Part shown: positions 8,028-51,505 of the stretch, in pieces | Numbering within the stretch: position 1 is the first letter of the stretch | How the letters are laid out: every line of letters begins with the position of its first letter | Notes under the pieces: generated by a model | What the model was told of the DNA's origin: nothing | The model's database searches: none | The model's input: the letters and a program-made list of their open reading frames with translations, nothing else | Assembly: GCA_000827325.1 (NCBI GenBank) | Contig: KN832874.1 | Span: 1,272,067 to 1,336,066 of the forward strand | DNA: 64,000 bases | Direction of reading: 5' to 3' | Source of the DNA: Oidiodendron maius Zn | Taxonomy: Eukaryota > Ascomycota > Leotiomycetes > Myxotrichaceae | Position numbers and translations under genes: made by a program

Positions 8028-9143
8028 CCTTGGAACAAATGGACCCTTAGGGAGGCATCACAAACAACACAAAGCAACATTAATCATGTCAGTTCAGCAG
8101 CAAGAGCCAGAGACACATCAAGGATTTCATCGACTCATTGGTGATCTGGGCAGAGGTTCTGCGCCCTGCAAGATGTCCGCGAACCACGCCAATTACGCGA
8201 ATATTTCATATTACGGCCTGCTATTTTTCCACTCCTGGAATATTATAATCTGGGGCATGGATGATGGGGTTAAATGAAATATTCGCGTAATTGGCGTTTC
8301 GCGGACGTCTTGCAAGGGCGCGTCAACCTCTGCCCAGATCACCAGCGATACGAACCATCATCGGTAGGATCGGAGGATATATCCTTAAACGGAGGGATAG
8401 TCACTACCAGGAGGTGAACTACCTAAAGTTTTTACAGCAGGATCATTTTATACCAGCTCATTCAACCATTAAACAACTCATGCACTGTTGAAAATAGCAC
8501 TCGGTCAATGTTCGACACCATGGGAGACTAGCGAGACCTTTGTTTCGTTTCATTTCATTTCATTTCTTTTCTTTTCTTTTCAATCTCCTCCGCATTCTTG
8601 TAAAAGTCTCCAGCATCCATTGAGCTATACTCTTCCGATAGGTTGAGATTGCGTTGGTATCGAGTACCCATGTCTCATTTAAGGCTTTTAGTTAGATACT
8701 GAATTTAGACTCGTATTGCTATAATTAAACTCCAACGTATAGCTCTGCGTAGTAGCTCTTCCATACAACTCTATTGTCAGCACTGGGTGAGAGTGGAATT
8801 AATATTTATAGAAGTATGTGCGCTGATATGGAATGGCGTCTATGTTCCATAACCTGCCAAAGCACTGCACGCACAGTGCCTGCTCTCCCCCTATTAATCC
8901 CGTGCCGTGTGTTAGTGACTTGGCATTCGACGAGTGGCTGTGTCGTGCCGAGAGTAAGCCTGGTTTCGCCACTCTGGGCCAGAAAAGCGCTAGGTGGCTT
9001 ACTGAGCGCCGCAATGACGAAGCGATTTTTCTGCGGCGTGGGCAGACGATACGGTTTGCACACACATCTTGTCTCAGCAAGTCGTCTAATGAGCAGTTCG
9101 GGGAGCAGATGTAGACTAGTTGCACACCTCTCAGCATGGCGAT
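8028..9143. other. Intergenic with fold-back repeat and pyrimidine microsatellite
   Basis: This contains the large inverted repeat (8139-8344), and a pyrimidine tract at about 8547-8582 made of TTTCA units changing to TTTTC units. The rest, up to the GPCR start, shows overlapping short frames on both strands (8774-9187) without a family match, and is probably promoter. Confidence 0.45.
8139..8344. repeat. 206-bp fold-back inverted repeat, MITE-like
   Basis: The left arm 8139-8209 and the right arm 8274-8344 are near-perfect reverse complements of about 71 bases with a few mismatches and single-base gaps. They flank a 64-base spacer. The arms begin TGGTGATCTGGGCAGAGG and end at the spacer with GCGAATATTTCAT. 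No open frame is encoded, and I could not find a clear target-site duplication. It lies 110 bp after the stop codon of the C2H2 gene. It could be a miniature inverted-repeat element, a remnant of a larger transposon, or a source of hairpin RNA. Confidence 0.8.
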
Positions 9144-10344
9144 ATGTCACTGAGCGAGGGACAATTGCTCGCCATCTCTATCGCTGAACGCACTTGCTCG
9201 GCTGTGTCGCTTCTCAGCGCTGGAGCTGCTGTGCTGACATTCCTGACATGGAAGGCTTTCCGAACACCCATCAATCGACTAATCTTCTATGCTCTCTGTG
9301 GGAATATAGTGCTTAACATAGCGACTCTCATTTCGAAATCAGGCGTGGACCATGGGGTAGGAAGCCCTTTGTGTTCGTTTCAGGCATTTCTGATTCAGTG
9401 GCTCTTCCCCGCAGACGCACTGTGGGCACTCTGCATAGCGTGGAACGTCTATCTGAGATTCTTCTATCGATACGACTCTAAACAGTTGCGACGCTTGGAG
9501 TGGAAATATGTGCTATTCTGCTATGTCATGCCATTCATCCCTGCACTTACCCTCCTTTTCATACGTACACGAAGTAGGGGGCGGGTGTATGGCTCTGGAC
9601 TTGTAAGTTTACCGTTATTTAACAGATCGATAACTGCTTATACATCTTGGCCTCGATAGTTCGAGTGTTGGATTGCCTTGTCTTGGGATAGTCTGCGGAT
9701 TGCGCTTCTTTATGGTCCGGTCTGGCTTGTTATTGCTGTTATAACAATCATTTACACGCGCGTGGGTTTATATATTTACTCTCACCTCAAGCACCTCCGA
9801 GCGCTGGGGATGACTGGTGACTGGACCGAAGACGTAAACCGGATTGCAGATGCTTCGACGACTGAGATGCACGAGATGACATCAACGCCATTCCGCGCGT
9901 ATCATGGTCACAGCCAAGCAGACGAAACTAGCGCCTCGAGACAACAAACATCCTCTACACACTCGATCAACAGACGTGCGAGAGAGCTCGTAAGGGTAGG
10001 CTCCGATTCCAACATGGCAGCTTGGGCATATGCAAGATACAGTTTCCTATTCTTCATTGCATTGCTTGTAACATGGGTTAGAAAGACTCTGTTGTGGAGG
10101 ACCTTTCCCTGTCACTAACAACGCATTCCAGGTCCCATCTACGATAAACCGCCTATCCACCCTTATTAATCCCCAATACTTATCCTTCGGTATGAACTAC
10201 GCTGCGGCTTTCGTTATCCCGCTGCAAGGGTTCTGGAATAGTGTTATCTATTTTACTATCTCTCGGCGGGAATTCAAAGCTCTTTCTGGACACCGCGAGA
10301 CGAGTCAAAGTAACTCTGCACGAATCTTCCATCTAGGGCACTAA
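9144..10344 (+). CDS. cAMP-receptor-like (class E, Git3/Dicty_CAR) GPCR
   Basis: Three exons, 9144-9602, 9660-10076 and 10132-10344, join in frame and give 362 residues. Seven hydrophobic segments are visible: SAVSLLSAGAAVLTFLTW, LIFYALCGNIVLNIATLI, WLFPADALWALCIAWNVYL, YVLFCYVMPFIPALTLLFI, IALLYGPVWLVIAVITIIY, YSFLFFIALLVTW and MNYAAAFVIPLQGFWNSVIY. A hydrophilic third cytoplasmic loop of about 85 residues, rich in Ser and Thr, precedes helix six. This fits the fungal family related to Dictyostelium cAMP receptors, which couple to heterotrimeric G proteins at the plasma membrane in nutrient or developmental signalling. The CWIALS segment after helix four fits the family's conserved Cys-Trp region. 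The ligand is unknown. The gene appears intact. Confidence 0.85.
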
Positions 10345-10815: not shown

Positions 10816-13000
10816 TTAAGGAATCCCCGGTCGAAGATCAAGACTGTCCCTATATTGAGCTGAGGAGATTTGTGCCTTCTCCTTTGCACTTCGAACTGAT
10901 TTTGAAGTCTGAGGGAGAAGCTCCAGGGTCTGCAGCAAGATTGACTGGAGGTGCTCGAAGGTACCCTGCTCAAGCGCGCCTGACTTGTAATCCCGTTCCA
11001 TCCCGTTCCACAAGAGTTGAACGGCTGCCACTACGTGATGGGGATAAGGGTCAATGGCAACCAACGGAACTTGGACAAAGTTGTTCTTCGTAGCTCCTTG
11101 TGGCCTGGGTAGGGAAAATTGATTGCTGAGTCCAAATACTAGGCAATTTATTATGTTGCCTTCCACGTCTGATTTCGTTATGGATAGTTGCTCCAAGATA
11201 TCCGTACGTCTTGCAATTTCAATGGCATCAATCATTATTAAGATAGATAGATGATAGTGAAGCATGAGTTCATCTTGAAGAAAGCAGCAGTGATTAGTAT
11301 TGTTATCCTCTTTGATGAAAGGATTCTGTAGCGGAGAATAACTCACACCAGCGAAGCTTTGTATGCTGAGATAGAAACTGGATACGGCGCTCACAGGTCA
11401 TCAGGAGAGGTCTGTATGTCACATTGAACTGTTTAATCGCATCGACAGCACTCGTGTACGCATGGTGCACAGTTTCCTCCTTGTGGCCCTCTCGAAGGGC
11501 CTCCTTAAGGACAGCAGCCATTTTCCACACGCGGAGCTTCCAAGCAGCACCCGCCGCAATGATGCGATTCGCATTTTCCTCTGAAACCACCATTCCGTGG
11601 ACGCGCCAGTCCTCGGTCTGCTCGTGGAAGATGTCCGTACATGACTTCACCAAGCGCCAAGAAGATTCCGACTCCCAGCCGAGGAGCCCTGACGAAAGCA
11701 GAGACTTGCTACTGAAAGTTAGGGAGGACGAGGTGTCAAAAGTAAGAGCGGCCCAGTATATCATGCTCTCGATACTCAGAAACTCTGATCGAATCTCATT
11801 CGGACTAGGGATGCGCGATGCTCGGTCTTGAAATGGAGAGACCTTCGAGCCGTTGAACTCAACACATCTTTGTCGAGCGCGGAGATGTAGTACCTGCTGT
11901 AAAGCAGTTTGTACAGCACAGAGAGCTGAAATTCCATCATCTTCTTCCTCTTCTGAAATCCCTACAGGTATAGGAACCATAGCAAAGAGATACAGACTCC
12001 ACATCGATCGATAGCACGGCCGATTAATGGCCTTGAGCAGGTCTTTCCGCAAGCCTCGCCAAAGGCCTTGGATTAGTTGAGTTTGTGCTGCTTTTTGTGC
12101 AGATGATCGAAAAGTGAGAGGCAGCCAACGAGCGGAAAACGTCTGAATTGCTTGGCTTAGGGTGCGATCGATTTGCTTCTCTCTTTCCACCTCCGCCTGG
12201 GTTGCGACCCGGTCAATTACATTCTTCTCCTGACTTTCCAAATCATTCATCCATTGATCGCATTGCCTACAAAGAGCAGATATGCTAATAGACAATTCAA
12301 GCGGCCTTTGCTCACTAGAGTCGGGTTCTAATTGTCCATGCTCTCCAAACCTGGGATACTATTTAGGTTCTTTCAAGGTAAGGAGAGCCATCTTACTTAC
12401 ACAAAAGGACAGCTATAATTCCCTAACCAGGAACCAAAGACTGCTTCAAAAATATCTTCATAAGTGGTACGTAGCCAGTCCGCCACGTCGGCACTTATGG
12501 GCATTGCAGGTATGCTCAACGCGGAATGTTCACGCCAGTCATCGTCAGATGCATGTTCCTCGGCACTGCGTTATTGAAATGTTAATAATCTAGCGATAGT
12601 AATCATTCAAATAATTTAATATACCTCTCAGAATAAGGGCTAAAATCAGGACTTCGTAATCTAGAAATGAGGCTGATGCCGACAAAACTTGCGGTTTGTC
12701 TTGACAGACGCCGGTGATCTGAAGGCGAAGATTGACTATTAGAGCTGGCAGAATGCCTGTTCATCCACTGCAAATCAAAACACGTATTAGAAATTTTCCA
12801 TAGGAAGAGAGACGGATCACAAGCAATCTGCTTACCTGAAAACTACAGGTAAGCTTTCGAGTAGCACACCGCGAGCAGGTGGAGAGGCCAGCCAAACCCA
12901 TGGCTGAGCGTCCTCTCATGGCGTCGCATGCGACGCGAGATTTTCTGCACGCATCGCAACTAGAAAATTGCTTACGGCGATTCACAGAACCAGTCTCCAT
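10816..13000 (-). CDS. Zn2Cys6 transcription factor, candidate regulator of the CGGATCCG genes
   Basis: A nuclear fungal-type binuclear zinc-cluster regulator. The first exon, 13000-12836, encodes METGSVNRRKQ followed by the cluster CDACRKSRVACD...CSRCATRKLTCSF. All six cysteines are present, with an unusually long middle loop (about 15 residues). Later exons carry VADWLRTTYEDIFEAVFG, LCRQCDQWMNDLESQEKN and a helical middle-homology-like region, including LLSSGLLGWESESSWRLV and WYELMLHYHLSILIMIDAIE. Joins near 12836/12767 and at the GTGAGT donor after LRW (near 11352) keep the frame. The start is the only ATG before the cluster. It is the nearest regulator to the dehydrogenase, MFS and PHB-depolymerase genes, all on the same strand. 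Its role there is inferred from position only, and its own promoter has no CGGATCCG. Confidence 0.8.
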
Positions 13001-13499
13001 GACGATGTAGTCGAGTGTGCAGAAGAGCGTTCGATTTGGAAACGGCAAAGAACTTTGTGGATACAGTTACGTCTTATTAATAACACCTGCCGCGTTCGGA
13101 TGCTTCCCCGCAAATTGGCCACTCGCGGGGAAAAGCAGTTGAGCCCGAGCTGCTAATGCGGCTCATTACCCAGCCTGGATTGGATCAGTTTTCATTTATA
13201 TTTTAAATAATTAGCCACCAGAGGAACTAAATACTTGAAAGTATTATCCGCTAGAATACGAGTCTTACTGGCTGGAAGAAGAGCAACGCAGGAAAGCTAC
13301 CATATACCTCAGTCATCACTCCACGAGAAAGGTTTGAATGCTTAGTGAAAGGGAATCTATTTACAAGTGATGTAGATTAACCTCTACCCTAGTAAGGTAT
13401 CAAGATAATACAACTGCTTTAGCCCAATAGAAACGAGATCCAAGACCCGATGATGAAGCTTCACCTTTCAAGTCCAGCAATATAATCATACGTGACAGA
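13001..13499. other. Intergenic
   Basis: About 500 bp between the Zn2Cys6 gene and the 3' end of the dehydrogenase gene, presumably the regulator's promoter. I see no CGGATCCG site and no gene. Confidence 0.4.
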
Positions 13500-14718
13500 C
13501 TAAAGCATGGGCTTTTGATCTTGTGCATCTGTGTAATTATAAAATCCTCGCCCGCTCTTTATCCCTAAGTGGCCATTCCGGATCATGCTTTGGAGATAAT
13601 CTCGTGGCTCATGAGGTACGCCAATTCTGGAGTCCGCATAGTGATTTTCAATGTCAAGCACAACATCTAATCCAACGATATCCATAAGTTCGCATGGCCC
13701 CTGTCGTGTCTTCAGCACATCTTTAAAAATTGCATCAATCTCTTGTGGCGTTCCGACGCCTTCAGCCAGAGCTAGAAGGGTTTCTCGTTTAATTGCAGCC
13801 CAAATCCTGTTGTAATATTAATATCTAGTAATTGCAAATGACTAAACCTCCTTCCAGATTCCAGATAGATTTACCTATTATATAAATAACCTATAGAGCT
13901 CTTCTTTACGTGAAATGGCCTGAAACCATGACTCGCACATTGCTTTAAGAGTAGAGCTATAAGAGATGGGTCTGTTTCGGGGTGGCCCATAATTTCAATT
14001 GCTAGAAAGTCGGCGTTAGGAAGTCAAATCTATGTAGTAAAATACTTTCATATCTCGATATAGATACATACCGGATGTCTCTGGTGGCCAGTCTAATTAT
14101 TTTCCGCGTCGAGTCAGCAATGTCTACAACTTTAGGTCAGTCTCCACAGAGATCACGTACAACAGTGTGCACTCAATGCCCTCTTGCTGTTGCGCAACTT
14201 CAACCCATCTAAAATCTCTGGGATCCCATAACTGCTGGAATTGGATGCGATGATGGTATCCTCTGGGGCATCTGCATCAAGCTGGGCGATTACTTTCTGC
14301 TTTAATGCTAAGATCTCAGGCACACACTATTTGAGAAGACAATGTTAAGTACCCCCACCTCTATCTTTCAGGGCCAAATCATACCTCAATCACCAGCCAT
14401 GCGTCTTGAAGTTTTGGTTTCAGCATATTCGGGTGTGATGTGGTAAGATCTCCCCAATTTCTATCATGATTAATCGAGGCCGCACGAAGCTGCTGCACAT
14501 ATCGCCGGCCATCTTGGAGCTGCCGCTCCTCTAGATCGACCAGGTGAACCGGGCCTCCTCTGCTTGACCACTTGAAGTTTTTTTCAATCAATATCAGCAT
14601 ATCTGATAAAACTAATACAAAACAAAGATCGGTTTCTCACCATGTAGGCTAGTCGCCTGCCCTGAGTGCCAGCACCGATGATCACAACAGACCCTCGCAG
14701 TTGATCGAGTGCTCCCAT
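13500..14718 (-). CDS. 3-hydroxyacyl-CoA dehydrogenase family protein
   Basis: Six exons, 14718-14641, 14570-14385, 14326-14161, 14092-14072, 14001-13875 and 13806-13500, join in frame to give 294 residues. The N-terminal NAD-binding fold has VVIIGAGTQGRRLAYM (GxGxxG), then VHLVDLEERQ with the acidic residue that selects NAD. The catalytic pair fits AHC (His) and AIEIMGHPET (Glu), and NSSS is also present. The C-terminal helical domain contains GYLYNRIWAAIKRETL, GPCELMDIVGLDVVLDI and GIKSGRGFYNY. The family oxidises 3-hydroxyacyl-CoA or related 3-hydroxy acids with NAD+. One exon is only 21 bases and lies between the catalytic residues. No C-terminal SKL-type peroxisome signal is seen. Three CGGATCCG sites lie 243-341 bp upstream. 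In this setting 3-hydroxybutyryl-CoA is a plausible but unproven substrate. Confidence 0.85.
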
Positions 14719-15528
14719 TTTAACATTCGTACGCAGTCAATGGTAGAAACACAGTTATTGACGTAATACAAAGCTGGTAATCCCCGTCCTCTCAAGCGTA
14801 ACGGGGAGGTTTACTGAAAGGCTCCTCGACAGAACAATGGGTAATCTTAACGTCGAAGGTGAAAATCAAGTCATAAATGAAGGGCAACTCTTATACTAAT
14901 TAAGATCCGTGTGCCAACTTAGTAATGATAGCATCTAGTGGCTAGACTATAGGTAACTATCGGATCCGCCGCGTTTAAGTGCGTGACATTGTATTGTTCA
15001 ACAGCGGAGTCGAAAGGAATTTTGCTGATTGGTCGAGGACATCGGATCCGAGTAATTACGGATCCGCCATAGCCAAAAAGGCGCCAAGCCCGAAACAGCC
15101 ACAATCTCGGTCAACTCGGGACCAAGTAACCAGATCATCCGCACACGTCTTTTGTCTTTGCCCACGATGATACTAATCGATTACTACCAGTGACATTACA
15201 ATTATTGACTTAGAACTAAAAGGATTAATTACAACGGACTACATGACTAATAACTCTCCTTTGATGAGCCTTGTAAATTGGGAAGTGGGCATTGGATAAA
15301 TAGAATTATGAAACTGGGGTAATAATGATACCTTAAGGTTTAGATTAGACTTTTATACATGACCCAATGCAAACTCAACAAAGTCTTCGTGAGAAATGTG
15401 GCAAAATTGATATTAGCTGGCTAAAATCGCTTCTAAAACAATGTACTCTTTCCGGACGAGAAATATTAGAGCTCGACTATAGACAATTTCTCATAACTCA
15501 GAACCTGTCAGCGGTGAAGCATCTCAGA
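14719..15528. promoter_or_regulatory. Promoter of the dehydrogenase gene with three CGGATCCG sites
   Basis: CGGATCCG occurs at 14961-14968, 15043-15050 and 15059-15066. The last two are 16 bp apart, and the third is in the longer context AATTACGGATCCG. No gene is seen between here and the end of the MFS gene at 15529. Confidence 0.75.
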
Positions 15529-17161
15529 TCAAGACTCTGCGCTAATCATTCCCTTATCTTCAGACTCTTCAACGTGAGAGGCTTCGTTAACTTGTGTATC
15601 AGCACCTTTTTCCAATTCATTAGACCCTGTATACTTTCGACTCTTCAATTTTTTTGCCACTCGAACTGAGTCGAAGATCGTATTCGAAGATTCAAATATC
15701 TCATCGATTTCCTCCAACGAATATTGTGCTGTTTCAGGAAAGAAGAAGTATATCGTTGGCACAAATGCCGCATTGAGACAACAATATATGAGGAAATATT
15801 TCCAAGCAATGTTAGTGAACGCAATAGGAGTCACTTCGGCGACGAGGAAGTTGAATAGCCAGGATACAGCCGTGGACAATCCACAGGTTGCCGCTCGCAG
15901 ATGAACTGGCGCAATCTCGCTTGCATAGAGAAATGGTATTCCGAGGAAACCCAAAACGTAGACGAAATAATAGAGGTATAGGAAAAAAACGCCTGCTTTG
16001 AGAGCCGCAGGGTTTTCAGGGTGAGATGCGACTCCAGAAAGGCAGGCGAAGCACAGTGACATTCCGCCGGCGCTCAACAGCATTAGTCTCCGGCGACCAA
16101 ATCGATCGACTGTAAACGCACAGCAAAAGGCACCGAGGATCATGGCGAACTGAGACGATGCGGCTAGGATTCCGGAAGTAGTGGAGCTGAAGTGAAGCTG
16201 CTGGGAGTAGATGGTCGGCGCGTAATATGCGATGGAATTTACACCACTCATCTGCAAGAACATCTGAGCAGTCGCAGCGAGAATGACACGATGGAAAGAT
16301 CGCTGAGGCCCCATTTTGAACATTGCGCTGAGATTGCTGCTTCCTGCCCGTTCAAATGACTGCCGGATGTTATCAATCTCGTGGTTCACGACTGGCCCAT
16401 GTGGATCATCGTCGTACAAGATGCTGAGTATCTCCCGACCTTCATCCCAGCGGTTCGTCTTGCAGAGCCAGCGGGGGCTTTCCGGCAATGTAAAAATAAA
16501 GGCACAAACCAGGATCGAAAGGAACAGAGTGAATGCCAATGTGAAACGCCATGAGACTGAGTTTGGTTGGGTGAATGACATCCCAAAGGCAATCCACAGC
16601 GCCAGTGCAATACCAGATGCACAAAATACGCCAAACGCAGAAACATGCTCGCCACGGCTCTCGGCTTTGGAGACTTCGGACTGCCAGACCGAAACAGTGG
16701 CAATGATCCCTCCAGTTCCCAGGCCTATGATTATTCGTCCCACAATGAATTGAGCAAAGCCAAAGGCAGATGCCTGTAAAATTGCCCCAACCCCTTGGAC
16801 AATACTGGCTATGAAAATGGTCTTCCGACGACCCAGGAGATCCCCGAGAAAGGTACAGCCAAGTGCTCCAAACACTCCAAACAACGTGTAAAGCGCAACG
16901 ACAGTTCCTATAGAGACTCATCAGAGTCTGCCTTCGTCCATGAGGGAAATATCACTCACCCTGGATTCTAGAGTTGTGTTGTTTCTGAGCACCCACTGTA
17001 TCAAGCGTATTCATCTGAGGAAATTGTTGATTGAATGTGACGTCCGCGAGGACGCCTCCAGCGGATGCTTGATTATAGCCAAAAATCATAACACCAAGGC
17101 AGGCTTCCGCCCATATTGTCAAGGACAATTTAGAGCCCCGAAGTCCCCAGAATCGCGCCAT
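15529..17161 (-). CDS. MFS sugar-porter family transporter
   Basis: Two exons, 17161-16960 and 16907-15529, join at GG|GAACTG and give 526 residues with twelve membrane segments. Sugar-porter signatures are present: GDLLGRRKTIF, GRIIIGLGTGG, PESPRWL, GVNSIAYYAPTIY, DRFGRRRLML and PETAQYSLEEIDEIF. Start ATG 17161 gives MARFWGLRGSKLSL, then a first helix FGYNQASAGGVL typical of the family. These are plasma-membrane proton symporters for sugars, but fungal members also carry other small polar molecules such as quinate or lactose, so the substrate cannot be read from sequence. Two CGGATCCG sites lie 250 and 294 bp upstream of the start. The gene sits between the dehydrogenase and the PHB depolymerase genes on the same strand, so import of the depolymerase product is one possibility. 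Confidence 0.9.
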
Positions 17162-17856
17162 TGTTTAATGGTCTCGAGCCCTCGTATTTTCAGATGACAA
17201 AGAGTGGAGAGGTAGAAGAGATGCAGTTCAGAAAATCTAGCTAAGGATCAACAGAATATAGTCCAAAAGCAACAGCTGCATTTGTAAACGATCTGGACTG
17301 TCTCGAAAGCCTACGAAGAATACTTGGGAGTGGGAGAGATATTTATCCAAGCTGAATGATGATCAAGCTTTCTCTCGACGTTTATTGCTCTTGGCCCACA
17401 CCCCTTATTACGGATCCGACAACATTTGGATTTTGTGTCGCTTTCCCCAAATTTCGGATCCGTCGCGGGAAGGATCCAGTCCAAAAGGGGCAAACGAGGT
17501 GGCGTCTAGTATCTATTATTGGCCAGACCGACTAAGAGGTGAGTAAAAGGTCTCCGCTTGTTAACTTAGAAAGGATGGTGGCTGACTGTTTACAAAATGC
17601 GGGGGATCAAGCTTTCCATTAGTGGGGGATCCCTTAGGAGATCCTGTCCCAGTCCATTGTCTCTATTTAGCACGGTCGAATGGAAGGTAGTTCTGCGGGA
17701 AATAGTTCTCGGTTAAATAACTGCATTAAAATCATATTTTCATTATATGAATATCATTGCTGAGATACGATAAAAGGCGACTTGTGACGTTGTATTCTGG
17801 TACCTGCTGCGAGACTGTCAATCTCGCGCTCCTCGGAAGGTTAAATCTTCCGCAAC
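17162..17856. promoter_or_regulatory. Promoter of the MFS gene with two CGGATCCG sites
   Basis: CGGATCCG occurs at 17411-17418 (context TATTACGGATCCG) and at 17455-17462, 44 bp apart. The remainder, up to the PHB depolymerase stop codon, holds no gene that I can see. Confidence 0.75.
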
Positions 17857-19180
17857 TTATAACAAGCACTGAGAGTAATATATAGTGTACGTAGTACAAA
17901 TTCCAACCGCACAAGTTGTTGGACCTGTCCAGCCTATCCCACCACACTGTCCGTACAGTGGCGCGCCAGTACTCGTGCTCCCCACAGCTGTGCTGGTACT
18001 TGTTCCTCCAGTGCCACCACCCGAGTTACCACCAATGATTTGATTGACCTGATTAACGATAGCAGCCATTTGGACCCCTATAGGAGGAAACACGTTTGGT
18101 TAGTACAGATGGGATGGTAAATCGTACCATGATGGCCGCACATGGAGCTGGTCTTACTCACCTCCAGTTTGGTCTGCATTTTCTCCATACCAGCCCACCC
18201 AGTCCCAGCATCCATTGGGATTAGGTATCTCCATTCCATCCCAGGCGCCGTGCTCTGTGTCATCAATAACTGCCTGAGGATACAGGATGATGATGTTGTT
18301 CGTGTCGGCCCACATGTTATATCCCGTGTTGTCAATATATTTAGACCCAATCTGGCTGTAGCCCTGGAGGCATCCGTGCACTGCGACATGTAGCTTGCAG
18401 ACAGTGGATGATTGTTGGCAGGCTGCAGGCACGTATAGGTATGCTGTTGTATCCATTCCGGAGGCGCCATAGGTCCCAGTCTGGCTGAAGGACACGACGC
18501 TACCGGATAATGTGCCTGTATTTCGCGGGTTCAGAGAACCGTACAACCACTGCAAAACTGCACCGGCACCGTCGTATCCACAGTTGCTAATATAAGGGGA
18601 GATAGACTCGCGACATGGGTTGTCTCCAGAACCGTCGAAGTCAGTTGGGAAAGTGTGCACAGCGCCACTGGTTGTAATGAAGGTGGTATTGGACGCGTCA
18701 TCAAAGTTAGACAATTGTGCTTTCAATTGATTCATCACATTTGGGCCGACAGTGGTATCCGCTGATCCGACTTGCATGTAGATTCTTCTCTGGTCGAGGT
18801 TTCCTACGGAATCAATTTGATTTCCGCTCCAGGCCTTCATGTTAGCGGTCGGGGTGGTTATGGATGGAACCTCATTGTACATGCAGTCAAGGTACTGTTT
18901 ATGTCACAGAATTAGACGGGCCAGTTTGTTCTTTCTGCAGAGTACGATGACTTACAGGTTGGTTTCGAGCACAGTCAAATGGTCCACCAGCAAAGACTCC
19001 AAAACCCGACTTGAAGGTCTCGGAGTAGGCCACCCCAAGTTGAACTGCCATAAACCCACCACTAGAGAGACCAGATACCGAGACCGAGTTGACGTCCACA
19101 TTGTATGTGCCAAGGCCGGCTGCAAGTGTTGTGGTCATGACGACGGATACCAATCCCAGAGCGTTTGTGATGCTGAACAT
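17857..19180 (-). CDS. Secreted poly(3-hydroxybutyrate) depolymerase with C-terminal CBM1
   Basis: Three exons, 19180-18956, 18894-18162 and 18077-17857, join in frame to give 392 residues. A signal peptide ([20 protein letters not shown]) leads into a single-domain esterase closely resembling the fungal PHB depolymerase of Penicillium (Talaromyces) funiculosum. Shared segments include [51 protein letters not shown] and [13 protein letters not shown]. The catalytic triad fits Ser in GLSSGG, Asp in GSADTTVGP and His in GAVHTFPTD. Such enzymes cut extracellular PHB into 3-hydroxybutyrate units. After [14 protein letters not shown] comes a Gly/Ser/Thr linker and a CBM1 ([16 protein letters not shown]... 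to YYSQCL), a module normally found on cellulases. Two CGGATCCG sites lie 279 and 538 bp upstream. The enzyme class is well supported; activity on PHB itself is inferred from similarity. Confidence 0.9.
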
Positions 19181-20268
19181 GGTGCCTATTGAAATATAGA
19201 AGTTATCTTAGTCGGTGGAATAGAAAGTATAATTGAATTATATTCACTTAAGGATAGCCAGCTTTTGAGAGCGTGAAGTTGAACTTTTTAACCTAGGTCG
19301 TCATGGGCAGAACCAGCTCAAGCAACTACAACCTAGGAAGAAGGTAGAAAATGTAACAATCCATAAGATTCAGATCTCACAACACTCTGCGAAGACTCAA
19401 AAGCGGGATATAGAATAAAAATTCGGAATCTCGGTCCAGAATGCAACCTGTCGTAATACGGATCCGGGAATTGCACCAGGAGGTAAATGGGCATTCTGAT
19501 CGGATGCAACCAAATTGAGGAAATAGAGATCGAAATGCATTCATCGAATCCATTTTGGGGCGCCTATTCCCGTCACTGCAATTATTTGTGGATATCAACT
19601 TAAAAATAACCAATTGAACCCCACTGTACTAACTGAGTTTCTGGATATATTACGAGTTGCCCGGATCTGACCCCCCCCCCCCCCTTGGTTAAATTTTGGA
19701 CCTTCTCTCTCTGTTGTCGGATCCGAACTTAAATGCGCCGCTTTGGAAAAGTTTATTACCCCGCAGTGTTAAAGTCTGTCTGAAGTATATTTAACTTCGC
19801 TAAGGTTAAGCCGCGAATTCCTAGTGTGGCCACCATGTGAAGCCGATGTGAGTAATCGATGGACTGCCGGGTACACGGTGAGTAAAAATGCCTCTGGCAA
19901 TTATCGAGCCGTAGCCCAAACTCTAGGCTGGTGGAGAGTAGAACCATAACTTAGATCGCATAGATCTCCGCGACAAAACTAGGTTCATAATTTGGTGGAG
20001 CTATCATGAGACAACCTCCTGGATATTCTTATGCTTATGAAGAGCAAAGTGTAGAACGAGCCAGGTAAACGGATCTGGATCTTTATTTATCTCTATAGTT
20101 AATCTAGCCTCTAGTAGCAACTATAAGAACAGAAGAGGTTTTTTTCAAACCCAAAATTTCCAAAAAATTATAGTAGAGGGGAAATGTATTATATTATTCG
20201 ACGAGAGGGTCCTTCAGGTTTGGAGACTGATCGAATCAGTGTTTAACTCAGGGTGAGGAATCTAGCCT
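19181..20268. promoter_or_regulatory. Promoter of the PHB depolymerase gene with two CGGATCCG sites and a C14 tract
   Basis: CGGATCCG occurs at 19459-19466 (context TAATACGGATCCG) and at 19718-19725. A run of 14 C lies at 19671-19684 between the two sites. The rest, up to the DHA2 transporter stop codon, is AT-rich and without a gene that I recognise. Confidence 0.75.
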
Positions 20269-22130
20269 TCAGCCGCCAGCCGTCATCTCTAATTGCAGCT
20301 TTTCGGTGCTCATAAGGAGGCCGCTAACAAAGCATAGTGCCCCAGCTGCAATCGGCATGATCCAGATCTTACTTATTGTTTTGACAATAGCAGCTAACGC
20401 AAGGGTCTGAACCTCGCCCGCATCCTGGAGAATAACAGATTCAATGCCACCGAGGGCAGTGCGGAGTTCAGCGTCAGAGAAGTTGAATGAAGCGAGTGCT
20501 GTTTTTAGCTCACTGAAGCCTACATTTTGAAAGATAGAGCCTGCTATGGATAGCGCAATTGTTATCGAGCCGATCTGCGCAACATTGATGAAGCCAATAC
20601 CAGCTGGAACTTCTGAAGGGAGGACCTTGACGACGATCACTGTGTATGCCGTCTGCAGCGAAATGCCCGCACCAATAGCAAGGAGGACCTCGTAGCCATA
20701 TATCTTACTAGCAGAAGTATGCGGGTTGATTGTGTGCATCAAAGCACCTCCAATAATCATGAGTGCTCCCGATGCCACGTAGTAGGGCATGTAACGGCCC
20801 ACCTTTGGGAGAGAGCCACCTCCAATCATAACAAAAGTAACCATCACAGCAATGAAAGGTAAGAGGCGGACAGCAGCATGAATCGCAGAGTCCCCCTTGG
20901 TGAACTGGAAGAAGAGGGGAACGTAGTATATCGTGACGAAAGTCGTTGTTGCAGAACAAGCTGTCGTGAGGTATAATAGGATATGTGTCCGGTGCTTGAG
21001 GAACTGAACAGGGAAGAGTCGGCGCTCGGGGGTGGTGAAGATGCAATAGACCTGTTGTAGGGCGAAGAGGACAAGGAAAACTCCGAAAAAGACCCAAAAT
21101 ACAATAGGGCCTGCAGAGTTCCATCGCCAGGTGGAGCCGGCTAAAGTCAAGACTACCTGGAAGAAGGTAAAGACGATGGCATTAAAAACGACTCCAACCC
21201 AGTCAATGTTGGCAATCTTTGTGCTGGCTGGGGTGTCCGGGCGTGGGTTGAAGCTCGGAAAGAGGAAGATGTATATTGGGGAGCAAACCGCTGCTAGAGG
21301 GAGATTGATGTAGAATGCCCATCTCCAGGTAGCGCTGCTGCTTGCAAAGCCCCCTCCGATTAGAGGACCTACAATGCATCCTGTGCCCCAGCAGAGGCCT
21401 AGTAACGCATTAAAAATAGGACGTTCCTTATGGTTTGTGAAGATAGATATATAGGTTAATGCGCTACAGATAGTTAGCTAAAGTCAGTCAGAGGGCTGAA
21501 GATACATACCCCATGTAAATCCCTGCTCCCCCCATACCAGCGATGATACGACCACATATCATAGCATTCATGTTTGGTGCGGCGCCGCAGATTGCACTTC
21601 CAACTTCGAAGACCACTATACCAGCAATGTAGAGGATTTTGATATTAAAGAGTCCATTTGCGACTCCAATAAGCAAGATTACAGAGACCGATCCCATAGG
21701 AAATCCGATTCCAACCCAAGGTAGCTTTTCGATTTCGCCAAGAGACTCGAGGATCGGGCCCTGGACATCCGCCGCGATAGTTGTGTCAAGGCCTGTGAAT
21801 AATTATTATCGAGTTAATGACTGCTATCAATAAGGACATACCATAAAGGAAAGCACCCAGGCAGAAGCCAAGGGTAATCAAGCCCCATCGAACATTCCCA
21901 AATGGACGCTTAAAGTCCGCAGAACCGGGAGAGTTACTTGTATCTCCATTTTCTGGATTCCCAGATGGACTGTTAATCTCACTCTTCTCTTCCTTGGCAA
22001 GATCTATGGAAGATTCGGGGGCCTGCGTTTCGTCTCTACCAGCTACAAGATGTGGAGACGTATTTCGTGTTGAACCGGTTTCTCCTTCTTTATCAAAAGA
22101 GGCTCGTTTTGTATCAGGAGTCTCAGCCAT
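20269..22130 (-). CDS. MFS multidrug transporter, DHA2-like (14 helices)
   Basis: At least three exons. ATG 22130 (MAETPDTKRASF) starts a hydrophilic N-terminal tail of about 75 residues. The first helix region reads WGLITLGFCLGAFLYGLDTT, joined across an intron near 21792-21842. Family features are LDTTIAADVQ, PWVGIGFPM, GRIIAGMGGAGIYMG, ERPIFNALLG, GPLIGGGFASSSATWRWAF, GSTWRWNSAG and the C-terminal IALSIAGSIFQN. This fits the fungal 14-spanner drug:H+ antiporter group, plasma-membrane exporters of toxic compounds or secondary metabolites. No biosynthetic cluster is visible beside it. Its promoter has no CGGATCCG, so it does not appear to share the control signal of the three genes to its left. 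Confidence 0.88.
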
Positions 22131-23613
22131 ATTGTATTCGCGAAAATCTTTCAAGAATTTATCCCATAGAAAAGGTATATTATGAAAGGAAAGTCAAAAT
22201 CCTGGCAAAAGCCATTCCAGGCGCTGTAAGGTTTTATCTTAACCCGTTCTTATGCTCCCACTCAAACACGTAGGTAGCGCTTAGAAGTTGAGCCGTCCAA
22301 TTGACTCCGTCCAAGCGACTAGCGCGGAGTTAAAGTCTTAATAATAATAAATTGCAGAATACGGCAAATGTAAAAAGTAAGCTGACGTTTGATAGAATAA
22401 TCATGAAATCGTAGATCCGCTCCATCCAATCAAGGCCCTATCCTGGTGTGATAGAGCAGCGGATTTTAAATCTCTGTAAATTAAACGTGAAGGATATTCG
22501 GATATTTCGGCCTGCGCAGATAGTCACTACATCCGTAACGGAGCCGTAACAGAACGAGCGAAGACGCACAATATAAATGGTACGGCTATACGTGAGGCAG
22601 CCACTCGCAGATTATCTTTCGATCTCCACACTTGGATTGCTTGTTGTGGATTGCTGAGTCTTCGTCAGAATATAATCGTTGGCCCGCTTCGACCTCCAAC
22701 ATCGTATTCGCTCGACCAGTAATTTTGAGCTCGCTACGGTTAGAGTCTCCGCAGAATAATATTACTTGAGCTGTACGAACACCAGCAAAAAAACCGCCAC
22801 ACGAAGCTGGAAATAGAGTGTTACAGTGATATTATATCGTAACAGCTTCTCTTTTTCAGCTATATTAGAAGCAAGCTAGCTATTCATGTTGTGAGGCAGG
22901 CCGGTTGTGAGGTCTGAAACACAAGTTGTAAGGTATGATGCGATATTCGTGCCGTGACAGATCAAAAAGGTCGCTAATTACAAACCAGCTGAGGCTAACT
23001 TATCTCCGATCGATCGGACCTACCGGCTTGTAAGATCATGTAAGCATAGTTGCGAGGCGCAACCTTGGCTGCCTTGGTACGGCGTAGGATGACCGTTTCT
23101 ACTGACACAAAAAATTTGGTGGGGTTGTGTTGTAAAGTCCATGGAGTTTCCGGGCTTAAATCTTTCCCAAGTAGGCTATGTTACGGGCAGGAGCCATCCC
23201 GATCCCCACCAGTATCATCAGCTTTAATCAGCTTTCGAACAAGAGCACCTGAAGAAGTCCTTGTAAATATAAACTTTGGAGTCTTTCAAGTTATACCAAT
23301 GGAGAGAAAGGCTAGCAAAAGTGTTGCGCCATCCCATACTGCTAAAATCATTCGCCAAATAGATAAGATACTGTCAAAGTAGATGTAGGGCTTGGTTATC
23401 TGAAATAAATCTACTAGTCGATATCTCAATTCGGAAGCAAAGTCTATAGAGGGAAGTATAGATGTCTCTTATGATATAGAGAGTCGGCATATCTAGAGTA
23501 CTGAGAGTACTTGAAAGTGACTCTCACATGTCAAATTTTTGATATCTGACGCAAAAGTTGGAGTCAGGGCAAACGTAGTAACAAGCCTGGTTAACATACG
23601 GATCACTCCCAGC
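22131..23613. other. Long intergenic stretch
   Basis: About 1.5 kb between two minus-strand genes. It includes a short duplicated unit, CCGTAACGGAGCCGTAAC, near 22530-22550. The open frame at 23050-23382 (+) has no recognisable family. I see no other feature. Confidence 0.4.
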
Positions 23614-24654
23614 TTATGTTTGCGAAGCAAATGCCTGTTCCGTCAGCCACTTCCCTGCTTCCATGAACCACTTCTCTGCTATTGGCCGCGCCAAGTCCGC
23701 TGTCTTCCCTCTCTTCAACCACCAATGCGTGAAACTGTGCTTCGCCTCCTTTACCAGCGTCCAGCGCAACCTGCCACCTTCCCTCTCGAAAGCATACCTT
23801 TCGCTCTCTGTCAACTCCTGCAGATTCGCCAGCCCTGCCATCATCCTCCTGGCCTCATCACCCAGCATGTCATACTCAGCACTAATTGTATAAATCCACT
23901 CTGGCAAGTCCTCTTTCTTTGCGTACAAGATGCTAAGCAGCGGATCCCTCTGATCCGTACCGCTTGGTAAATACATGTTATTAAAGATCGGTGCAATTGC
24001 GGCTAACCTATCGACATCCTTAGGGTTCTTGTACGGCCGTGAGGCGAGCTTATAAGCATAATTCACGCTCCAGTCAAGTGGCGCATACCACGGGATTGCG
24101 GCTTTAATCTTCCCTTGGAGAGCCGGTAGCTGGCATGCGGAGAGAGCTAGGTTTCCTCCCGCACTAAACCCGCCGATGGCAACGCGGGAGTGATCGATGG
24201 GAAGAGTCTGATCAGATAGGATGGCAGTTACGACAGCAGCCACGTCTTGGGTGGGCACGGGGAAGGCGATCCATGGGGTCAGGGAGTAATCGATGCTGAT
24301 GACCAGGAGATTGAAATGATTGGAGAAGAAGATGCAGAACTCATCATCATGTTCAGGACTGCCGAAAGCGAACCCCCCTCCGTGGATGTTGATATACAAA
24401 GGGAGGGACTCGCCGGATTGATAGGACTTGGGGAAGAAAACTCGGTGTTTGAGGTTCGGCCTGCACGTATAGACCTTCGAGAAGGTCGGCTTACCGCTTG
24501 GGCTAGGAGCGAGACCGAGTGGAACGACAAGTTTGCGAATCGACCATCCGACTGCTAGGAGGGTCTTGATCGCACATAAAATTACGAAATACCGAAACCG
24601 TGTATAAAGAGGGAGGGGGCTCCAAAAGAGAGGGGCTGCAGATGATTGCTCCAT
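23614..24654 (-). CDS. HSL-type alpha/beta hydrolase (esterase/lipase)
   Basis: A single-exon frame of 346 residues from ATG 24654. The N-terminus MEQSSAAPLFWSPLPLY is followed by a hydrophobic segment FVILCAIKTLLAVGW that may anchor it in a membrane. The hormone-sensitive-lipase family signature is clear: NIHGGGFAFGS forms the oxyanion hole, GGFSAGGNLALSA holds the nucleophile serine, SAEYDMLGDEA the aspartate, and KHSFTHWW the histidine. These enzymes hydrolyse short-chain or aromatic carboxylic esters, and the substrate cannot be predicted. It lies between the DHA2 transporter and the second Zn2Cys6 regulator. The gene looks intact. Confidence 0.88.
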   Translation of the reverse strand: MEQSSAAPLFWSPLPLYTRFRYFVILCAIKTLLAVGWSIRKLVVPLGLAPSPSGKPTFSKVYTCRPNLKHRVFFPKSYQSGESLPLYINIHGGGFAFGSPEHDDEFCIFFSNHFNLLVISIDYSLTPWIAFPVPTQDVAAVVTAILSDQTLPIDHSRVAIGGFSAGGNLALSACQLPALQGKIKAAIPWYAPLDWSVNYAYKLASRPYKNPKDVDRLAAIAPIFNNMYLPSGTDQRDPLLSILYAKKEDLPEWIYTISAEYDMLGDEARRMMAGLANLQELTESERYAFEREGGRLRWTLVKEAKHSFTHWWLKRGKTADLARPIAEKWFMEAGKWLTEQAFASQT

Positions 24655-25141
24655 ATGACGAGGCCTTCTTATAAATGGAGAGTCTAATAACAAAAGAAAC
24701 AGTGCTGCATTCACAACAACAAAGAAGATCGTCTGATTCGTATATCAAACCGAATTCAACATTACTGTCGAGAAGTTTCTCAACAGATTTTCACGTGTCA
24801 GCACATGTCAACCCGACGCGCTTTACCTAATCAGGCAACAATCCGATACCAACTGGTAACGCGCGCTCCGCACGGCTCCGCACGCCGAGGCCCTGAAACA
24901 GTAGATGATCAAGTATAAAGGGGGAAGGAGGGCAAAATTTTAGAGAGTGAAGTCTAAGAATCAACCTTATTGGCTGAGATGTAGGAACTGCATTTTGGTG
25001 CAGTTATTAGCGAGCCTCACACGACCATGCTGCTTTTATGAATCCGACGGGTGCTGCCCCAGGTGAGCGGCACCCAACTCCCTGATCTCGGTGAGCACTC
25101 GTGAAACTCATTTCCAGATTCCCGAATTGGAGAAACAGATT
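24655..25141. other. Intergenic
   Basis: Promoter of the HSL-type hydrolase and 3' flank of the Zn2Cys6 gene. I see no distinctive sites. Confidence 0.4.
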
Positions 25142-28770: not shown

Positions 28771-30602
28771 ATGCCGGATTATAATGTTCAACAATCGGCG
28801 AAGAACATTTTGGTGAACAAGCTCGTGGGCGACGAGCGCCTTGGCTTCACACCAGACGTCAAGGCCGCGTGTGAGAAAGTGAAGTTCTCTGGCCATGATA
28901 AGCCCTTCTTTCCTACGCCAGTCAAGATGACAGAAACTATCTCAGTCATGTCCGCGCTCGTTGGCGCAGCCGCATCTGTTGTGGCGGCTGAAAGATATGG
29001 CATTGAGCAGGATGTCGAAGTTAACACGTGAGTGACTGGCCCTTTTCCTGTACTTCAGCCGTCGTCGGCATTGAAGAGTATCCTCGGCCTGACACACTCC
29101 ATGTCTAGTAACAAAGCTAGCACCTTTCTCCTGAGTTTTTTGATTCCTACCATTAGAGGCTCTTCCATTTTTCAGTCGCCGGCCTTCAAAGCTGTAGCCG
29201 CAAAGAGTGATCTCACGGACTATTTCAAGCCAATTCACCAGCAGGCCATGCTGATATACCAATGTAAGGATAACAAGTGGTTTCACCTCCATTCTTCCTT
29301 TGATGCTCGTCCTATGATGGAGATGCTTGGCATCCCAGAGCAAGATGTAACCCCCAGCGTGGCCACCAAGATATATGCCGAAAAGGTGGCCCAGTGGAAT
29401 GTAGACGATTTAGATCACGCAGTCAATGATGAGTATCACGGCGCAGGTGTCCAGTGCTACGATGGTCCGGATGAGTACTATAAAACGGAACAGGTATGTT
29501 GTAGCAGTATTGACACGTTGATGCGGGAGCCAGGACTGATTGTTGGGTATTTAGGGTAAAGCGATGAAGGATCGGCCAATTGCCGATATCACAACGCTCC
29601 TCGCGCCGAGAGTTCCGTGGCCAAAGGCACCTGCAGGATCGGAGTGCCGGCCCCTAGCAGGAATCCGTGTCATGGAATTTGCCCGCGCGGTCGCGGGCCC
29701 AACCATCTCGAAGATGCTTGCATTGCTCGGAGCCGATGTTATTCGGGTTTCATTCGACCAGATTCCCGATACCTCCATGGGCCTGCTAGACACTAACATG
29801 GGCAAACGAGACGTCTGCATCAACCTCAACATGGAGGAAGGCAAGGCCAAATTTCGACATCTCCTGAAGGATGCCGATGTCTTGGTGGATGGCTTCCGAC
29901 CTGGAGTCCTGGAAAGGAAAGGGTTTCATTCAACGGTGCTGCGAGAGGTGAATCCTTCTTTGATCTATGTGCGGGAGAACTGCTACGGTTGGGCGGGCCC
30001 ATGGGCTCATCGTTCCGGTTGGCAGCATATTGCCGACTCGGTGACTGGTCTTTGCGCCTTGCAAGGAGCCTTCTTTGGCTTGAAGGAGCCCGTTTGCCCT
30101 CTTCTACGTAAGTGCAACCCATCTCATCATGACGTTTAGCGCAAGCTGACCCTAAACCACAGCCAACTCTGACTACCAGACCGGAGTTTTTACGGCAGGT
30201 GCCATCATCCAAGCCCTGATTCGGCGCACTAGAGAGGACGTGACATTCGATATCAAATCTAGCTTGTCAGCATATAACATCTGGCTTATGAACTTGGGCC
30301 TGTATGACGAGCAGCAAAGTGCCGCCATCCGCGCGCTGAACGACGGGATCACGATTCGCCACTACCACTCAATATTCGAGATCTTCGTGATGTTCTCGAA
30401 GCCAATTGAGAAGAATCTACCTGGCGTCCTCCGCAACCCTAAGCACTTCATCACCATGTCCGGAAAGCTTTGGAACGAGGATGAGGACATCGTAATTGTC
30501 GGCCCGGCCTTCGGCTTGTCGAAGTCCACTCTAGGCTACTTATGTCCTTCTGGTCCTCCAGGTTGGTCGAATGATAATTCGGAGTGGAACCCTCGTGATT
30601 AA
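28771..30602 (+). CDS. Class III CoA-transferase (CaiB/BaiF family)
   Basis: Four exons, 28771-29027, 29109-29493, 29555-30107 and 30163-30602, join in frame to give 544 residues. The start is MPDYNVQQSAKN. The second half carries the family core: LAGIRVMEFARAVAGPTISK, LLGADVIRVS, MGKRDVCINLNMEEGKA, KDADVLVDGFRPGVLERKGF, VNPSLIYVRENCYGWAGPW and GWQHIADSVTGL. The first half is a related but diverged domain, as in other long fungal members. Family members move CoA between acyl-CoA and free acids, or racemise 2-methylacyl-CoA. No organelle signal is obvious, and the C-terminus does not end in SKL. Its substrate is unknown. Activation of 3-hydroxybutyrate would fit the locus to its left, but no shared promoter signal supports that. 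Confidence 0.85.
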
Positions 30603-49991: not shown

Positions 49992-51505
49992 TTAAACCGC
50001 CCCTATTAAACAGGCAATCAAAGCCAGCGCAAATGCAAAAACACTATTCTGCTCCAGATCCCTTGCGGCCGCATTGGGCTTCGTATTCGTTGGCGTAGCG
50101 CTACTGCCTGTAGGTGTCCCTGTTCCGGTCCCACTGCCTGCTTTGACCAATACATAGATTTCCCCCGTTGAATCCGAGCTCATAAATAATCTCTCTTGTG
50201 AATCAAGCGCCAAGCCTACAGGACGAAAGCAGTCATCTGGACAGTTAGTTAAGTTCGCATTAGTCAGGATGTCGACGGCGGCAGTCGTGCTGTCTGAGAG
50301 GGCTACAGGGGATCCGGAAGAGAAGGCGGTAGAGGTGACTTTGTAGCCGATTGGGTCAGTACGATCCCTACGGAAAGTTAGCCTTTTATTGGAAAACCAT
50401 AAAGATGTGAAAGTAGAGAGGCAATAGTTCGCGTACCAGCTTCCATGGAATGTTACATATGCTACCGTCCCATCAGGTAAGAATTTGATGTCTAGGGGAG
50501 CCATATGTGCCTGGAATGTCAACCTCGGAGGAACAAATTGAGTAGCGCATGTTGTATCATTGAGAGTACTATTCGGATCCATTGTGAATTGGCTGCCCAC
50601 GGTCAAATTTCCCGGATCGGGGATACTCGTATTCCACAGAGCATAACAGGACGGATAGCCGTAGTTGCCTCCCTGGTTCTCAGTCGAGGCGTTGAGAAAG
50701 CCGTGAAAATTCATCTCCTCGCCCGGATTGTCTTCGTGGATATCGACTCCATCCCGCTCGACCTGATCAGCGGAGTTTTCCACGCTGTAAATTCCTCCTG
50801 TCAATGGCTCTTCTGCTACGCCGACTGAATTTCTCAGGCCCCAGCCAAGTAATCTTCCCTCTGAGGTGAAATCGTAGGGTTGAGTTGTCGATGTCAAGTT
50901 GGAGGTGTCAAAGGCCTTAATCTGGGAGTGTCCGGAGCTAAGAGACGAGGCTTCAGGATCGATATTCGAATTACTCCCTCTGCAGACAATAAGTATTCCT
51001 GGCTCCTTTTGCGACATCAACAGTGTTCGCGTTGTATGATCATCATTGGTCATATTTGTAACCACTGTTTGGTTTGTCTCACTGACCGATACGCCGGCGG
51101 CATCGTACGCCCAGGAGAACACGGACTCGGAGGATGATGCATAGAGTGTCTTTCCATCGTTGGAGAGAGCGATACCATGATTTAGCTACATTTACTATTA
51201 GCTGCCATCTTCAGCACAGTAGAGCAGGGCTCGGAGCGTACCGCAGTTGAATTAACTATATTCGTCGTCTTCGAGACTCCTACATTCACGCCCCCACTAT
51301 CACTTAGGGCAAGGTGGATAATGCCCGCCCCTTGTTGAACTACAAGAAGGCCACCACTTCCATCGAATAAAATCCCCCGCGGGCTGTTCAGGCCAGATGC
51401 AACAACCTTAAACGACCAGCCATCAGCGGCAATAGGTGTCACGCCCAGCGTTGGCTGTGCTAGAAAGCCAAGAGCCACTATAAGATTTAGTCTTCCCAGC
51501 TTCAT
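49992..51505 (-). CDS. Glucose/sorbosone dehydrogenase-like beta-propeller protein, secreted and probably GPI-anchored
   Basis: The start ATG 51505 gives MKLGRLNLIVALGFLAQPTLG, a signal peptide. Three exons are likely, with introns near 51180-51245 (after the TTNIVNST part) and near 50365-50435. The body has propeller-type segments: SGLNSPRGILFDGSGGLLVV, LNHGIALSNDGKTLYASS, LLGWGLRNSVGVAEEPLTGG, NPGEEMNFHGF, NYGYPSCYALW, APLDIKFLPDGTVAYVTFHG and CFRPVGLALDSQERLFMSSD. This fits the soluble PQQ-type glucose/sorbosone dehydrogenase family, whose fungal members are mostly uncharacterised secreted proteins. The C-terminus has a Gly/Thr/Ser-rich linker, then NAAARDLEQNS and a final hydrophobic VFAFALALIACLIGAV, which suggests a GPI-anchor signal. 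Whether it binds PQQ is unknown. Confidence 0.8.

Follow-up and report, generated by a model that had tools for sequence, protein, structure and literature searches.

A probable polyhydroxybutyrate-use gene cluster with a shared, rare promoter motif in the fungus Oidiodendron maius Zn

The locus and its gene models

We studied a 64,000-nucleotide stretch of the Oidiodendron maius Zn genome (C5:1272067-1336066 of the 45.9-Mb genome G000), which we call the window. Within it lie four neighbouring genes that probably form a new fungal cluster for the use of polyhydroxybutyrate (PHB). They encode a Zn2Cys6 transcription factor, a protein of the 3-hydroxyacyl-CoA dehydrogenase family (HAD), a sugar porter of the major facilitator superfamily (MFS) and a PHB depolymerase. 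An earlier note on this DNA had assigned four genes on one strand to these families, and the models, which we spliced by hand from the DNA alone, bear this out together with the Pfam matches. All four genes are located on the minus strand and have complete reading frames, and every intron in the hand-spliced models follows the GT-AG rule. The genes are as follows.

13000..10816, minus strand: Zn2Cys6 transcription factor, 644 aa, 5 exons (spliced model); Pfam Zn_clus
14718..13500, minus strand: HAD, 3-hydroxyacyl-CoA dehydrogenase-family protein, 294 aa, 6 exons; PF02737 and PF00725
17161..15529, minus strand: sugar-porter family MFS transporter, 526 aa, 2 exons; Sugar_tr
19180..17857, minus strand: type-2 PHB depolymerase with a CBM1 at its C-terminus, probably secreted, 392 aa, 3 exons; 2D80 match and CBM_1

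The HAD model contains an exon of 21 bases. The family alignment supports this reading, as the motif encoded there is conserved across it. Three protein homologue searches were run, with HAD, the depolymerase and the MFS protein as queries, and the best 120 rows of each were compared. Among the named homologues in these rows, the best matches to HAD and to the MFS protein were mostly Penicillium proteins; the depolymerase had its best ones in Aspergillus, Pseudogymnoascus and Penicillium.

A rare motif in three promoters

The promoters of HAD, the MFS gene and the depolymerase gene share the motif CGGATCCG, as the earlier note had stated. The seven sites, which carry no strand assignment, are listed below.

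14961..14968: CGGATCCG, HAD promoter
15043..15050: CGGATCCG, HAD promoter
15059..15066: CGGATCCG, HAD promoter
17411..17418: CGGATCCG, MFS promoter
17455..17462: CGGATCCG, MFS promoter
19459..19466: CGGATCCG, depolymerase promoter
19718..19725: CGGATCCG, depolymerase promoter

The window holds 8 copies compared to an expectation of 0.53, and none of 100 shuffles reached 8. Seven of the eight are located upstream of cluster genes (HAD 3, MFS 2, depolymerase 2) and the copy nearest to the ATG lies 243, 250 or 279 bp away in the three promoters. The eighth copy, at 26006, falls inside an open frame that matches Fungal_trans at cut-off, and we took it as chance. Across the 45.9 Mb of the genome there are 551 copies, compared to 418 for the backward-read control pattern. 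At the genome rate we would expect 0.057 copies in 4,765 bp, which gives a Poisson P of 4e-13 for seven. Motif and stretch were chosen after the fact, and correcting P for ~3.3e4 8-mers times 1e4 windows leaves ~1e-4. All seven CGG-N2-CCG sites in the three promoters have AT at the centre, compared to one of nine elsewhere in the window. Any 9-mer or 10-mer that the three promoters have in common overlaps CGGATCCG.

We then counted pairs of CGGATCCG with gaps of 0-121 bp across the genome. Such pairs occur at four places with a gap of 0-60 and at one place with a gap of 61-121, and the backward controls have none. If the 551 sites were random we would expect ~0.8 close pairs; three of the five observed are in this cluster. 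The other two are at C23:573159, within an open frame and just behind its start codon, and at C23:128325/128384. A literature search for CGGATCCG as a transcription factor binding site returned nothing but a plant match. A fungal catabolic cluster with a local Zn2Cys6 activator is characterised by the linkage of its genes and by palindromic CGG sites that they share; both are found here, and the three genes are very probably co-regulated.

The regulator and its relative

The first gene shows the pattern CX2CX6CX16CX2CX6C with a long loop (read by eye) and has a Zn_clus match. Searching the genome with this protein (7/7 candidates scored) returned the protein itself and one relative only, at C23:126130-127602, which is 33% identical over 489 aligned positions and keeps RRKQFSSCD-CR-S-VACD. 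The last open frame of the relative ends ~420 bp before the pair C23:128325/128384, a placement with a chance probability of ~9e-5. The two copies of this pair precede an ATG by 178 and 237 bp, with a one-mismatch site between them. Behind the frame opened by this ATG comes a PRISE-like reductase frame; in our own reading both may belong to one gene. MFS and Abhydrolase_3 frames also occur near the relative, within C23:120001-140000.

Thus, apart from the pairs of the cluster, just one close pair lies outside any open gene frame, and it sits beside the single relative of the regulator that was found. This ties the regulator family to CGGATCCG; no other sequence evidence speaks as strongly for the family reading the motif. 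Two results speak against such a role. The 499-bp region upstream of the regulator itself is free of CGGATCCG, and the second Cys triplet of the C23 relative was not found, so the relative may be decayed. We regard the Zn2Cys6 protein as the likely regulator of the cluster.

Depolymerase and transporter

The depolymerase matches the solved PHB depolymerase of Penicillium (Talaromyces) funiculosus with E values of 5e-160 (2D80) and 1e-159 (2D81), and residues 23-336, which is the whole catalytic domain, are aligned. The triad S39, D121, H155 is in register with 2D80 in this alignment (positions counted by eye). Ser39-Asp121-His155 is also the triad named for a Clonostachys rosea homologue of 2D81 in PMC12345228. 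Pfam reports CBM_1 at the C-terminus (9e-9) and places Esterase_PHB under its cut-off; the assignment is based on the 2D80/2D81 matches. A homologue that is 72% identical (P0121) passes the hidden Markov model NF050059 for type-2 extracellular short-chain-length polyhydroxyalkanoate depolymerases with 361.9 compared to 280 bits. The N-terminus is hydrophobic by eye and the enzyme is probably secreted. The window enzyme thus resembles the P. funiculosus enzyme in its type-2 catalytic domain and triad and adds a Ser/Thr/Gly linker and CBM1, whereas the solved chain of 318 residues has no such part. As PF00734 is listed for 15 of the best 120 homologues, including A. fumigatus, the CBM1 architecture is not new in itself.

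The genome contains a second depolymerase copy at C11:1535550-1536628 with a main exon that is 69% identical. In the 16 kb around it we found no CGGATCCG and no significant match to HAD, the MFS protein or the regulator. Bacterial relatives (Burkholderiaceae, Myxococcales and metagenome proteins, among P0158-P0240) are ~65-70% identical and many have fn3 domains, which suggests that the gene has passed between bacteria and fungi.

For the MFS protein Pfam reports Sugar_tr with 313.6 bits (2.9e-93), and its homologue P0245 (74% identical) passes the sugar porter model TIGR00879 with 283.2 compared to 237.8. We propose that the protein imports 3-hydroxybutyrate or an oligomer of it; its relatives in the PDB, which are mainly sugar carriers, count against this.

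Linkage in other fungi

Linkage was read by eye from locus tags and shared contigs within the best 120 rows per search, with consecutive tags taken as neighbours. HAD and the depolymerase are linked in three of the ten species present in both lists. The tags are VTO42DRAFT_305/306 in Malbranchea cinnamomea and FQN50_008435/008437 in Emmonsiellopsis sp. PD_5; in P. egyptiacum each gene is on a contig 765,914 bases long, and linkage is read here from this equal size alone. Counting two of ten, without P. egyptiacum, the probability of this linkage by chance is ~7e-6. HAD and the MFS gene are linked in two of six species, P. maclennaniae (N7477_005088/005087) and P. angulare (N7478_005206/005204). 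In P. maclennaniae the depolymerase (5273) is ten tags away from another MFS homologue (5263). The linked HADs are scattered over the HAD tree, in which many forks are weak: they fall into Onygenales and into three Penicillium branches.

Some rows were left out of these counts: the HAD-depolymerase pairs of P. oxalicum and Fusarium and the HAD-MFS pair of P. roqueforti come from different strains, and HAD-MFS rows with an MFS identity near 50% were regarded as paralogues. None of the latter are linked; in T. rugulosus and P. sp. DV-2018c the two genes share a contig and are separated by some 900 to 1,150 tags.

The same comparison also yields evidence against a conserved cluster. HAD and the depolymerase are unlinked, on different contigs, in seven of the ten species (P. 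maclennaniae, A. lucknowensis, A. keveii, A. alliaceus, whose rows may stem from two assemblies, A. hancockii, Cephalotrichum and Conoideocrella), and HAD and the MFS gene are unlinked in four of six (P. riverlandense, P. sp. IBT 16267x, Rhizodiscina and Fonsecaea pedrosoi, the last possibly from two assemblies). Many fungi have a HAD homologue and no depolymerase among the matches listed in the 120 rows. The earlier note had named absent synteny in close relatives as a sign against the cluster: linkage does exist in some fungi, and most of the compared relatives are without it. This patchiness would suit a locus of mere neighbours with no joint pathway, ordered by chance and carrying the sites of a generic regulator. 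We consider this very improbable given the density and rarity of the motif, its association with the relative of the regulator and the recurrence of linkage in several lineages. The cluster is real and non-random, and its purpose is most likely the use of PHB.

The dehydrogenase and its substrate

HAD matches 3HCDH_N (PF02737) with 92.1 bits and 3HCDH (PF00725) with 70.6 bits, both over cut-off, which places it in the HCDH superfamily. The dehydrogenase of the cluster is thus of the HCDH type and not a short-chain dehydrogenase/reductase (SDR). In an alignment of 121 family members almost every sequence retains the catalytic residues Ser, His, Glu and Asn. The window protein carries HCYWPP and not the His-Phe-Phe-Asn-Pro motif of the CoA-ester 3-hydroxybutyryl-CoA dehydrogenases. 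The Asn of HFFNP is Trp in 111 of the 121 sequences and the other 10 have a gap. HxYWPPE instead of HFFNP sets the subfamily apart from 3-hydroxybutyryl-CoA dehydrogenases, diketoreductase and L-gulonate 3-dehydrogenase (lambda-crystallin). The HAD homologue P0005 has none of 20 NCBIfam rows over cut-off (best 152 compared to 312 bits), the models being made for prokaryotes. In a fold comparison based on the predicted structure of P0005 many HCDH enzymes are near in Z and substrates are not separable. No close paralogue of HAD was found in the genome, the best of the candidates (6/6 scored) being 36% identical.

PHB depolymerases release the (R) acid and the CoA-ester enzymes of the HCDH family are (S)-specific. 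Acetoacetate decarboxylase uses the free acid. There is no CoA ligase among the four genes. We inspected the neighbourhoods of bacterial HAD relatives at 80 loci, counting neighbours by tblastn; clustering the neighbours by long open frames was dropped as it proved noisy in GC-rich DNA. Acetoacetate decarboxylase adjoins HAD at 15 of the 80 loci, at several places in the tree, and all five of the neighbours tested are far above the NCBIfam cut-off.

The lack of a ligase in the cluster, the mismatch between (R) and (S), Trp in place of Asn and the decarboxylase neighbours in bacteria favour a free-acid route: oxidation of free 3-hydroxybutyrate to acetoacetate is a more likely reaction for HAD than oxidation of the CoA ester. 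The claim of the earlier note that oxidation proceeds as the CoA ester to acetoacetyl-CoA is for these reasons not well supported. The substrate chemistry is nevertheless the weak point of the cluster reading, and several results count against the free acid. The closest solved relatives of HAD, by sequence and by fold, are mostly CoA-ester enzymes. The decarboxylase count of 15/80 stands without a control set of unrelated loci, and 25 of the 80 loci (e.g. L022, L026, L035, L045) adjoin a propeller protein instead, which has a sub-cut-off match to SMP-30/gluconolactonase; among these, L021, L024, L025, L029 and L043 also have a carnitine-dehydrogenase-like gene. Furthermore the fungal HADs form their own clade in the tree and group with neither bacterial set.

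The propeller neighbours also fit a co-regulated catabolic cluster with a different substrate, either a hydroxy acid or an ester such as one from plant litter to which CBM1 would give access; the depolymerase would then be recruited or promiscuous. CBM1 is a cellulose-binding domain, the transporter matches Sugar_tr and P0245 the sugar porter model TIGR00879, and an A. fumigatus PHB depolymerase is reported in the title of a 2018 paper to be active on two other polyesters. We judge this quite unlikely, since a proven PHB depolymerase is matched over its whole catalytic domain with the full triad, and bacterial relatives of HAD have acetoacetate decarboxylase as a neighbour.

Activation of the product

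The free-acid route via HAD would close the pathway with the genes that are seen if acetoacetate is activated elsewhere. Kbc1 of Cryptococcus neoformans is described in PMC9426453 as an acetoacetyl-CoA synthetase that is selective for acetoacetate with minimal conversion of 3-hydroxybutyrate. In the genome no single exon of the TIGR01217-like loci is over cut-off (14/36 candidates scored); by our own addition the summed exon scores of the C3 locus exceed it. CGGATCCG is absent from the examined flanks, upstream stretches included, of six such loci (two on C1 and one each on C2, C3, C5 and C9), so activation of acetoacetate would lie outside the regulon. This is a point against a self-contained pathway, and a synthetase within the regulon is not supported.

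The same cluster could also work through the ester, with an unlinked ligase or transferase making the CoA ester and HAD oxidising it to acetoacetyl-CoA. The CoA-ester enzymes among the best matches of HAD, mostly 3-hydroxybutyryl-CoA dehydrogenases, the four conserved catalytic residues and a family-III CoA-transferase fragment 10 kb away (29555-30136) would agree with this. Such a route would, on the other hand, need an epimerase to turn the (R) acid into the (S) form; there is no CGGATCCG near the CoA-transferase or at the six synthetase-like loci, and the altered HFFNP motif, the decarboxylase neighbours and the failure of P0005 to reach any NCBIfam cut-off argue against it as well. We regard this route as unlikely, though less so than a cluster for another substrate.

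An SDR-type 3-hydroxybutyrate dehydrogenase may also exist elsewhere in the genome. A search with TIGR01963 found none over cut-off (best 151.8 compared to 307 bits) with 16/323 candidates scored and genes split by introns; the model is over cut-off in 4 of 14 control genomes.

Other genes in the window

We set aside three candidate members of the cluster, as each is without an exact CGGATCCG upstream: an MFS gene at 20269-22193, an alpha/beta hydrolase at 23617-24744 and the CoA-transferase family III fragment (plus strand, PF02515) mentioned above. A seven-transmembrane receptor-like gene adjoins the regulator at 9120-10343 (plus strand), with a Dicty_CAR match in its first frame. At 42573-45132 (minus strand) an NPHP3_N/NACHT frame is followed by an ankyrin-repeat frame, resembling a fungal NLR-type protein. 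The window also contains a TrAA12-like protein at 49995-51185 (minus strand), which we take to be a possible PQQ-dependent sugar oxidoreductase.

Proposed function and comparison with known systems

The view that cleavage of PHB outside the cell, uptake and oxidation form one co-regulated cluster, which the earlier note put forward, gains support from the depolymerase match, the rare shared motif and the recurrent linkage. In the working we propose, the secreted depolymerase would cut PHB to (R)-3-hydroxybutyrate and short oligomers, possibly while tethered by CBM1 to plant litter or the polymer surface. The MFS protein would import the acid or a small oligomer, and HAD, probably in the cytosol, would convert free 3-hydroxybutyrate and NAD+ to acetoacetate. 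An unlinked acetoacetyl-CoA synthetase would activate the acetoacetate and thiolase would then split the product. A dimer of the Zn2Cys6 protein on the inverted repeat CGG-AT-CCG would switch on the three genes when an inducer is present.

We hold it somewhat more probable than its rivals taken together that the locus is a pathway-specific PHB catabolic cluster with oxidation of the free acid by HAD. The fuller picture is offered tentatively, as something short of an even bet: a complete, regulated fungal regulon for bioplastic use, in which HAD would be a free (R)-3-hydroxybutyrate dehydrogenase, the sugar porter a ketone-body importer and a two-member Zn2Cys6 family the reader of CGGATCCG. 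The literature searched, which lies mostly outside subscription journals and includes the available text of the reviews PMC13372988 and PMC11893044, contains no fungal gene cluster for PHB or 3-hydroxybutyrate.

Degradation of PHB by fungi is known, and the searched literature covers the fungal depolymerases but not the steps after them; the locus proposes transporter, dehydrogenase and switch together. If the proposal is true, oxidation of free (R)-3-hydroxybutyrate is a new activity for the HCDH subfamily, which would do the work of the bacterial SDR enzyme, and a function is offered for a large, unnamed subfamily of fungi and bacteria. Motif and regulator could also help to find or express bioplastic-degrading enzymes.

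Bacterial use of PHB involves an extracellular depolymerase, uptake, an SDR-type (R)-3-hydroxybutyrate dehydrogenase and the activation of acetoacetate. The proposed fungal cluster would follow the same order of steps, but with an HCDH-family dehydrogenase in place of the SDR enzyme, a sugar-porter MFS protein, a Zn2Cys6 regulator and clustered genes. Among fungal catabolic clusters, those for quinate (qut/qa) and proline (prn) have a Zn2Cys6 activator of their own at the locus. The window cluster resembles them in its linked transporter, enzymes and local regulator and in the repeated CGG palindromes of its promoters, and differs from them in its proposed substrate and in its site type, CGG-N2-CCG.

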